Made by a program: the position numbers and the translations under genes. This document shows, piece by piece, positions 1,164-21,085 of a DNA stretch of 64,000 bases. Below the pieces are notes generated by a model, which saw only the letters and a program-made list of their open reading frames with translations, was not told the DNA's origin and ran no database searches. Where the stretch lies: the NCBI GenBank assembly GCA_002749205.1, contig PDOP01000004.1, positions 1 through 64,000 of the forward strand. The letters are read 5' to 3'. Position 1 is the stretch's first letter. Each line of letters begins with the position of its first letter. The stretch comes from Treponema sp. Its GTDB lineage: Bacteria; Spirochaetota; Spirochaetia; Treponematales; Treponemataceae.

Positions 1164-2055
1164 TGTGTACCACCGCTAATGATATAGAGTATAGCTTTGA
1201 AATTGCGTCATCGGCACGGCTCGTCAGAACAATCGGGCATGCAGCTCCTAAGATGATGCCTGCAACTTTTGCACCTGCCAAGAATACTCCGGTTTTGTAA
1301 AATACATTGCCCGATTCAATATTCGGGAATACCAATACATCTGCTTTTCCTGCAACTTCGCTTTTAATGCCTTTGTGTTTAACCGATTCCATTGAAACAA
1401 TGTTGTCAATTGCGAAAGGTCCTTCTACAAGCGCATTACCGAATTCGCCGTTTTTCGAGGCGTTTGTTAGTTCTTCGGCATCAACGGTTGATTGCATTTT
1501 TGGGTTTACTTTTTCTACTGCCGATACAATTGCTACTTTTGGTTTTTTAATTCCCAAAGATTTACAAAGCGGTAAAACATTGTGAATAATATCTTTTTTC
1601 TGCTCTACAGATACGGTAATATTCATTGCTCCGTCTGTTACAAATAGTAGTCTGTCCAAAGTTGGGAATTCCAGCAATCCGACATGGCTTAAAAGCGGAG
1701 ACTTTCTTGCTCCGTATTCTTTGTTCAAAACATGTTTGAGTAATACTTTTGTGTCCAGTAAGCCTTTCATTAAAACAGTGGCTTTTTTTTCACGAATTGC
1801 TTTTAATGCCAACATTGAAGATTCATCAGGATCTCGAGCATCGATTATTGTAACCAAGCTCTTGTCTTCTTTCATTTCATCAAGAATGGCTTCAATTTCT
1901 TCTTTTTTGCCGAATAAAAGCACATCGGCAATGCCTTCTTTTTTTGCCTGCATTACAGCCTGAAGCACAGGCTCATCCTGTGCTTCAACAACTGCAAGCG
2001 TCTGTCCTTTCTTACCTTTTGCAAGCGGTAACAGCTGCTTTAGTTCTTTAATCAT
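1150..2055 (-). CDS. ptb: phosphate butyryltransferase
   Basis: Pta/Ptb-type sequence (SPLLSHVGLLEFPTLDRLLFVTDGAMNI; AGIILGAACPIVLTSRADD); overlaps buk. Confidence 0.92.
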   Translation of the reverse strand: MIKELKQLLPLAKGKKGQTLAVVEAQDEPVLQAVMQAKKEGIADVLLFGKKEEIEAILDEMKEDKSLVTIIDARDPDESSMLALKAIREKKATVLMKGLLDTKVLLKHVLNKEYGARKSPLLSHVGLLEFPTLDRLLFVTDGAMNITVSVEQKKDIIHNVLPLCKSLGIKKPKVAIVSAVEKVNPKMQSTVDAEELTNASKNGEFGNALVEGPFAIDNIVSMESVKHKGIKSEVAGKADVLVFPNIESGNVFYKTGVFLAGAKVAGIILGAACPIVLTSRADDAISKLYSISLAVVHSDEN

Positions 2056-2609: not shown

Positions 2610-3364
2610 GCTTCTGCTCCTAAATCTTTATAAATACCCAATGGATAGTAAGGTATCATATTGTCTTTTGCCCATGCCAACGCTTCTACCGGTGGAATAC
2701 CCCAGTTTACCGGACATGTTCCGATAAATTCAACCAACGAAAAGCCTTTACCCGCAAGTTGATATTCAAAAGCTTTTTTAACAGCCTTTTTTGCAAGTCG
2801 CAAATGCTTTGGATCATGTGCCGAAACGCGCTCAATATAAGCCGCTCCGGGAACTTGAGCCATAATTTCTGAAATTCTTAAAGGCAAACCTGTTGTTCTT
2901 TGTTCTCGACCGAAAGGCGATGTTGTTGTTTTCTGTCCAATCAAAGTGGTTGGAGCCATCTGTCCGCCTGTCATTCCGTAAATAGCGTTGTTTACGAAAA
3001 TTACGGTAATGTTTTCGCCACGGTGAGCGGCATGCAATGTTTCTGCAATACCGATTGATGCAAGGTCGCCGTCTCCTTGATATGTAAATACAACACTCTC
3101 AGGGCTTACTCTTTTGATACCTGAAGCTACGGCACAAGCACGACCGTGAGCCGCTTGTTGCATATCGCAATTAAAAAATTCATAAGACATAACCGAGCAG
3201 CCTACACTGGCAATACCAACGGCTTTTTCTATAATATCCAACTCTTCCATTGTTTCGGCAACCAGCTTATGAATCATACCATGCGTACAGCCCGGACAGT
3301 ATGTCATAGTCTTGTCCGTAAGACCCTTTGATTTTTGATATATAATTTTTTCCATGTTATGCAT
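2606..3364 (-). CDS. 2-oxoacid:ferredoxin oxidoreductase beta (TPP-binding) subunit
   Basis: YCPGCTHGMIHKL, GDGDLASIGIAE...NNAIYGMTGGQ TPP motifs. Confidence 0.92.
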   Translation of the reverse strand: MHNMEKIIYQKSKGLTDKTMTYCPGCTHGMIHKLVAETMEELDIIEKAVGIASVGCSVMSYEFFNCDMQQAAHGRACAVASGIKRVSPESVVFTYQGDGDLASIGIAETLHAAHRGENITVIFVNNAIYGMTGGQMAPTTLIGQKTTTSPFGREQRTTGLPLRISEIMAQVPGAAYIERVSAHDPKHLRLAKKAVKKAFEYQLAGKGFSLVEFIGTCPVNWGIPPVEALAWAKDNMIPYYPLGIYKDLGAEA

Positions 3365-19528: not shown

Positions 19529-19657
19529 CAGCTTTAAATTTGGGCGTTGCGGGCAAAGCCCGCCGGCGTATCAAAAGCTCCGACTAAAAATCCCGCTCAA
19601 ATAGAACGGGATTTTTATTTTTCGACTTGTGTATACAATAAGCGTTTAATCTCATTA

Positions 19658-20784
19658 TCACCATGCAAATTCTATTTCATTGCTGAATTCTTTTACATCA
19701 ATGAATTTAAGTTTACCCGTAAGAGTGTCGTATATTCCGAGCCTTTTCGGTATTGCAGTATTTGAATGTTTATCGGCTATGTAAATTTTCCCGTCTCGCT
19801 TACCCAAAAACTGTATCGCACTGTAAAAACCCGTAACCGTTTTAAGAAGCTTGAAATCGGGAAGTGAATAAACATACAGTTTTGACCACTTTAAACTCGT
19901 ACTATAATTTTTTATAATTACATACAGTATATCGCCATCAACTATTATATCCAAAACATAGGGATAAAAATAAGCTCCTTGTTTAGATATTTTTATTTTT
20001 TTTACAACATTGGTCATATCGAATTTATCGATGCATCTTAAATAATAATAATACTCTGTAGTATATATCGTATCACTGGTAACAATGTAGTGTTTACCGA
20101 CAGATATTTTTCTTTTATCATTTGGACCAATTCGGACTGAAGTTTCTTCTGTTCCCCATGAATCCCAAAAAAGAGCCCGCTTGTAAAGAGAATCACTACC
20201 GTAATACACTGTATTGTCTTCAGTGTCAATAAATAAGTTTTTTTTAAAGTGTGTAGAATTTAGTGTAACTGAATTATCATAGGTCGAAAGTACAGGATTG
20301 GAAAAACCGGAAGTAGCGTGAAGAAAAAACAATCTGCCGTATTTATCAAATGCAAACTCATGTATACCGCTAGCATCTATAGAGCCTTTAAAAACAAGAC
20401 CGTCTTTTTTTTCAGGGTTTGCAACGGCAAAGAAAGTACAGGTAATGCTTGGAGCCGAGCCTGTTTTTTTTGCCGGAAGTATAATATGAGGCTTTATTTC
20501 TTCTATTTCGAGGGTAATTACGCTGTTTGTATAAGGCTCTATTATAATGCTTTTAGCCCTTGCGATGTATGTGCAAACAGTGTTCATGAGCTTTAGCTCT
20601 ATGTCAAAACCCTGCCCCAGGTCTGTTACAGCCACATGACCTTCGGTAATGCTTCTTTCCGGCGAAAGGGTTAGGGTAAGGGCATTCGGGTTTTCAAGCT
20701 CCATATTGCAACTTGAAAGCGTCAAGAAAAAAAAGAAAAGTGCTAAAAGCCTAAGCCTTGTCTGTCTGTCTGTCTGTCTGTCAT
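19658..20784 (-). CDS. putative phase-variable lipoprotein; the 20784 ATG is out of frame with the main ORF by (GACA)6
   Basis: Lipobox FFFFLTLSSC; RBS AAGGAAG and ATG at 20784; (GACA)6 at 20759-20782; track ORF (TTG, 20725) lacks the N-region of the signal peptide. Confidence 0.65.
20759..20782 (-). repeat. tetranucleotide tandem repeat (GACA)6
   Basis: TGTCTGTCTGTCTGTCTGTCTGTC on + strand. Confidence 0.95.
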
Positions 20785-20837
20785 ATCTAATCTTCCTTAT
20801 TTATATACTTTTTAGTTTATATTTTACAACTTCAGCG

Positions 20838-20866
20838 ATTATAACACAAGATAGATAGGTTTTCAA
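20838..20866 (-). promoter_or_regulatory. sigma-70 promoter of the lipoprotein gene
   Basis: minus strand TTGAAA-N17-TATAAT. Confidence 0.7.
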
Positions 20867-20924: not shown

Positions 20925-21085
20925 TGTTTAACCTGATTTTAACCGGCGATGTCTATCCTTTTTTGAGCAGAAAACAGAAGGAGAGGGAGTTGTAGCGACA
21001 GCGGAAAATCCCGATTAAAATATAAGAAGCTCAAAAAAGATTATGCGAGCCGGTCGGTTGGTAAGCAAAAGCGATAGCGTTGCAC
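20925..21085 (-). repeat. Structured intergenic repeat family A, copy A2 (inverted)
   Basis: ACCGGC(20942-20947)/GCCGGT(21049-21054); CTTTTTTGAGC(20958-20968)/GCTCAAAAAAG(21029-21039); GGGA(20985-20988)/TCCC(21009-21012). Confidence 0.7.

Follow-up and report, generated by a model that had tools for sequence, protein, structure and literature searches.

Tetranucleotide arrays at the start codons of a predicted outer-surface lipoprotein family in a Treponema species suggest switching at translation

The window analysed here is a stretch of 64,000 nucleotides from the draft genome of a Treponema sp., and on its minus strand a start codon runs straight into an array of GACA units lying ahead of a long open frame that begins with a lipoprotein-like signal peptide. 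The question raised by this locus is whether its product is phase-variable, with the array as the switch, as the initial annotation had proposed. Judging from its sequence and that of its relatives, we consider with good confidence that the locus is part of a species-restricted lipoprotein family, predicted to lie at the outer surface, in which most members would be switched ON and OFF at translation by slipped-strand mispairing. The features of the locus are listed below, C8, C39 and similar names being contigs of the same draft genome and C34 that of the window.

20838 to 20866, minus strand: promoter, TTGAAA, 17 nt, TATAAT (11 of 12 consensus matches and a TG before the second hexamer; promoter scan)
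20792 to 20798, minus strand: Shine-Dalgarno-like AAGGAAG (sequence; AAGGAG at this place in the other members except C69)
20782 to 20784, minus strand: start codon ATG (sequence)
20759 to 20782, minus strand: (GACA)6 array, the proposed switch (TRF, 6.0 copies, 100%; the longest tetranucleotide array of the window)
20743 to 20745, minus strand: TAG ending the 13-codon frame at n=6, OFF (translation)
20711 to 20758, minus strand: predicted lipoprotein signal peptide core RLRLLALFFFFLTLSS, in the ON frame only (translation; aligned with the signal peptides of C8, C64, C39 and C69)
20708 to 20710, minus strand: predicted lipidated cysteine, LSSC (sequence; Cys conserved in all members reaching it)
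20618 to 20619, minus strand: junction of an in-frame 120-bp (40-codon) deletion relative to the paralogues (comparison with C8; protein alignment)
19658 to 20707, minus strand: body of the predicted mature lipoprotein and stop codon (open frame; 53-88% identical to same-genome paralogues)
19586 to 19615, minus strand: terminator-like AAATCCCG...CGGGATTTTT, 3′ of the gene (read by eye)

The reported fusion of the ATG (20784-20782) to the array is as described, the first G of the array being the G of the ATG, and the AAGGAAG upstream ends 7 nt before the start codon. At six units the frame is OFF, as had been predicted, ATG 20784 reading MTDRQTDRQGLGF over 13 codons and then a stop. The rule that n must be 1 mod 3 for ON was likewise borne out by translation: at such numbers reading continues from the array into the signal peptide and an open frame of 366 codons, the frame past the array reading RLRLLALFFFFLTLSSC..., and the two other frames stop within five codons past the array. 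The same exercise for C8, C64, C61 and C69 gave one productive frame in each case, the others ending early. The array of the window copy is perfect, lies in the 5′ coding region and has a unit length not divisible by three. Its length is beyond chance, the longest tetranucleotide run being 10-16 nt in simulated 64-kb windows (Markov orders 1, 3 and 5, 60 windows per order) versus 24 nt here; next in the window itself comes an AAAT run of 16 nt. At the other end of the gene, the terminator-like sequence was not listed by the terminator scan, which has a loop limit of 8 nt, and the 3′ flank is repeated after the family member on C56.

The draft genome of the window itself (1.91 Mb, 69 contigs) was searched for related genes. 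The protein search gave matches on seven further contigs and array searches added two, C64 and C36 being one gene joined by 99 identical bases of contig overlap. Seven distinct 5′ ends were found, so the family holds at least seven genes:

C34 (window): (GACA)6, out of frame, OFF
C8: (GACA)12, out of frame, OFF
C64/C36: (GACA)3, out of frame, OFF
C39: ATG-(GACA)2-GTAAAAGC, in frame without an array, ON
C69: (CAAA)15, in frame, ON
C61: ATGG(CAAA)16, in frame, ON
C30: ATGG(CAAA), at least 14 units, cut by the contig end

C22 lacks a 5′ end; this copy and C56 provide further 3′ parts, possibly belonging to C8, C39, C61 or C30. Two different tetranucleotides, GACA and CAAA, thus occupy the same site after the start codon within one family, and array lengths span 2 to 16 units among the copies. 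The long arrays may be mis-sized, because the contigs of this 69-contig draft break inside family genes and arrays. The proposal of a phase-variable lipoprotein gains support both from the sequence of the window copy and from at least six paralogue 5′ ends that share its layout and differ in repeat number or unit.

Six of the seven 5′ ends carry TTGAAA, exactly 17 nt, and then TATAAT (TATAGT in C61), at 82-117 nt before the ATG, and the leader together with ATGACAGAC occurs at exactly four sites in the genome, every one of them a family member. C69 has its (CAAA)15 in frame but is without the family promoter and ribosome site. By its sequence the predicted promoter of the window copy is strong. 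A sigma-70 promoter of this constitutive-looking type would yield mRNA in every cell, on which ribosomes would start at the ATG fused to the array. Slipped-strand mispairing, which we infer to take place in living cells, would then change the number of units and thereby set the frame in which the array is left: one third of array lengths would lead into the signal peptide and lipoprotein, and two thirds to a stop within a few codons. Since each copy has its own array, the copies would switch independently, and a population would display combinations of family members.

Two further observations concern the upstream regions. C8 carries a hicBA toxin-antitoxin pair (580-1090; HicA assigned by Pfam, HicB weakly). 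On one side of the pair is a further copy of the family promoter (97% over 39 bp), on the other the lipoprotein gene with (GACA)12; the arrangement looks like an insertion accompanied by promoter duplication. Several members are also preceded by dispersed intergenic elements (20926-21050 in the window), related to one another and about 130 bp long, which recur elsewhere in the genome at unrelated sites.

In regards to slippage, the leaders of C8 and C64 are 96.6% identical over 119 bp, yet n is 12 in one and 3 in the other, and C61 and C69 are identical over 83 bp around the array, yet n is 16 versus 15. In about 400 kb sampled as single genome stretches, the window included, perfect tetranucleotide runs of at least 20 nt were found five times in family genes and once at C14. 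C8, C14, C30 and C61 had been picked for their arrays, so that the unbiased part of the sample contributes only C34 and C69, both of them family genes. Long tetranucleotide arrays are almost confined to family genes in the sampled genome. Near-alike flanks carrying different n, two units sharing one site and the concentration of long arrays in these genes together make slippage the likely cause.

AGTC tracts of 3-12 units have been classed as 'mutable', with 1e-7 to 1e-5 mutations per division, and those of more than 10 units as hypermutable, with 1e-5 to 1e-2 per division, the ranges of the classes overlapping (PMC4235727, Table 1). This scale was made for Haemophilus AGTC, and its carrying over to GACA in Treponema is our extrapolation. 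With six units the window copy falls in the lower 'mutable' class of the Haemophilus AGTC scale and is not clearly hypermutable, so that it should switch slowly. By the same analogy with Haemophilus AGTC, hypermutability would be expected of C8, C61, C69 and C30, a moderate rate of the window copy and a low one of C64, with C39 in effect fixed.

The product is a predicted lipoprotein. Its signal peptide, LLALFFFFLTLSSC, has a hydrophobic core and a lipobox cysteine, a layout also recognised by inspection in C8, C64, C39 and C69, and the core and the LSSC cysteine fit a lipoprotein signal peptide; the ON form would be expressed, lipidated and placed at the cell surface, where it may have a role in host or immune interaction. 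Sequence searches of Pfam, NCBIfam and PDB gave no family above threshold, a PilJ_C match (E = 0.09) being below the cut-off and discarded, and Rfam gave no match over the locus. A single-sequence AlphaFold model was all-beta and poor (pLDDT 44). Its best PDB structure matches were mostly beta-propellers, including surface-exposed BtuG-type lipoproteins, at a TM of about 0.25 for this poor model, so that a beta-propeller fold may be taken as a lead only.

The chief rival to phase variation is that the out-of-frame copies are silent, either as pseudogenes or as unexpressed donors recombining with the expressed C39, C61 and C69, the hypermutability of the arrays being a by-product. Three of the six readable copies are indeed out of frame, the window copy has suffered the 120-bp deletion, and identity among copies is patchy, 60-bp blocks ranging from 48 to 98% against C22 (blocks of the 120-bp gap left aside). 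However, the out-of-frame copies retain the promoter, the ribosome site, the start codon and long stop-free frames, those 3′ of the out-of-frame arrays being intact, and even the deletion in the window copy is in frame. Pairwise dN/dS among members is below 1 throughout (all values 0.22-0.67), indicating purifying selection on the open frames, and out-of-frame copies are therefore not simply decaying. Constraint is strongest in the N- and C-terminal thirds (dN/dS about 0.25-0.45), and divergence peaks in the middle one (0.43-0.82). A surface protein with one variable face would be expected to show this pattern, although it is no proof of selection for diversity. Gene conversion and phase variation are, moreover, compatible with each other. 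The intact frames thus weaken the idea of silent donors or decaying copies, which we regard as improbable, and the OFF copies are probably alive rather than dead. As for the deletion, the 40 codons missing from the window copy belong to a conserved N-terminal region, so that even the ON form may be an altered protein, and the 68 bp past the junction match the final 68 bp of contig C8 exactly.

A second explanation, which we hold to be very unlikely, is that the array merely varies the length of the signal peptide n-region, made of TDRQ or TNKQ repeats, and so tunes export or the initiation of translation. Both units are free of stops in all frames and every reading of the arrays gives TDRQ or TNKQ repeats, which in the in-frame copies would amount to n-regions of up to about 23 residues. 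But length tuning alone would favour units in multiples of three, whereas here each unit of four bases gained or lost changes the frame, and both wrong frames end almost immediately, within five codons past the array in each of the three GACA members examined; n-region tuning is unlikely for this reason. That n is an artefact of assembly might be suspected of a draft genome whose contigs end inside arrays at C14 and C30; however, a read and the 99-bp contig overlap are both far longer than 24 nt, and the same layout is seen again in independent contigs, which leaves this explanation with even less weight. The least likely of all is that OFF is only apparent, ribosomes shifting frame or starting internally at TTG 20725, the first start codon in the open frame: that codon lies five codons before the cysteine and past nearly all of the hydrophobic segment, it is preceded by TTTTCTTTTTTTTC and no ribosome site, and its product would have no usable signal peptide, and initiation there is unlikely because of this missing ribosome site and the loss of the signal peptide.

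The family was also compared with other genomes. Among 275 other genomes of the taxonomic family, none gave a convincing match to the family HMM; a marginal match in one genus-mate (G004; 44 residues, E = 8.6e-4) was set aside, lying in a different 822-codon frame. An N-terminal HMM detected no relative among 395 genomes sampled evenly from the phylum; no homologue came from two scans of 85,488 species genomes, which seed on short exact peptides, and the viral contigs, plasmids and phages searched held no convincing one. In genus-mates TpiA is about 70% identical and the order tpiA-orf-secG is kept where the contig stretch sufficed, and a family member is absent from the place beside tpiA. A CAAA array in the genus-mate G007 and GACA arrays in four genomes of other genera were found to lie in or adjoining unrelated genes. 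On these searches the family appears to be species-restricted and an orphan.

The arrays invite comparison with known systems. In Haemophilus influenzae the units are CAAT in lic1, lic2A and lic3A, GACA in lgtC, GCAA in lav and AGTC or AGCC in modA. Terms for the Haemophilus tetranucleotide genes, lgtC included, are present in PMC6479036 and PMC3938747. The likeness lies in a tetranucleotide array in the 5′ coding region with three frames, one of them productive, and lgtC also shares the GACA unit; the H. influenzae genes differ in that they are mostly those of glycosyltransferases, methyltransferases and autotransporters in a gammaproteobacterium, and no sequence relation of the family to Haemophilus contingency genes was found. 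The opa paralogues of Neisseria number about a dozen; they are unlinked, constitutively transcribed and switch independently, each having a repeat in its signal-peptide region. They resemble the present genes as a multi-copy family with its own repeat in each copy, whereas opa has the pentanucleotide CTCTT and encodes outer-membrane beta-barrel adhesins and the genes described here have GACA or CAAA and encode predicted lipoproteins. With these units in place of CTCTT, and with no Pfam, NCBIfam or PDB match above threshold, the family is not one of Opa proteins. In one strain 11 phase-variable opa genes have been reported (PMC11868660). The Vlp and Vpma families of mycoplasmas are also surface lipoproteins varied in combination (PMC11868660), but the mechanism (site-specific recombination in Vpma), the organism and the proteins are different. 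Closer to the present host, slippage-based variation in Treponema pallidum affects homopolymeric G/C mononucleotide tracts, according to the discussion of PMC8049484; it likewise concerns slippage in a treponeme, but no tetranucleotide arrays or homologous family are reported in that discussion.

The switching principle is therefore an established one, and the protein family, the host group and the presence of two units in one family appear to be new. Our literature search, most subscription journals being outside it, found no paper on tetranucleotide-switched lipoproteins in Treponema, and slippage in treponemes is known mainly from the mononucleotide tracts of T. pallidum. We favour, with more reserve than the switching itself, a young species-specific expansion in the Treponema denticola group that would have led to opa-like combinatorial switching, with GACA and CAAA at the same site, and to a tetranucleotide-driven phasome in a spirochaete. 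If this is true, at least seven predicted lipoproteins, most with a tetranucleotide array of their own, would provide a combinatorial surface for a treponeme of the T. denticola genus, and one cell lineage could display many different surfaces. The variation could be tested by repeat counts in existing oral or animal metagenome reads, and the copies, spanning 2 to 16 units, offer a ready internal comparison.

Several other arrays were observed outside the family. In the same genome, C14 opens (1-47) with a (TGTC) array that has at least 11 units and is truncated by the contig end. Some 130 bp downstream of it begins a gene (178-1344) for a predicted lipoprotein with an FGE-sulfatase domain that is unrelated to the family; here phase variation would possibly be transcriptional. 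In G062, a genome of another treponeme genus, about 20 GACA units (2990-3072) lie inside a type I restriction specificity gene (Methylase_S), whose frame ends just past the array and is followed by a second specificity-like half in another frame, so that it is likely a phase-variable hsdS. G162 has about 13 ACAG/GACA units (3085-3139) near the end of a C5-cytosine methyltransferase frame with an intein-like Hint insert, which makes this methyltransferase a candidate phasevarion. In the genus-mate G007, about five TTTG units (around 1500-1545, minus strand) encode the hydrophobic core of a predicted lipoprotein signal peptide. Finally, at contig starts in G268 and G275, contig-end GACA arrays are preceded by a shared ...GTTAAG...GTGTATAGCTATCCCAGACAGACAG that resembles integron attC cores.
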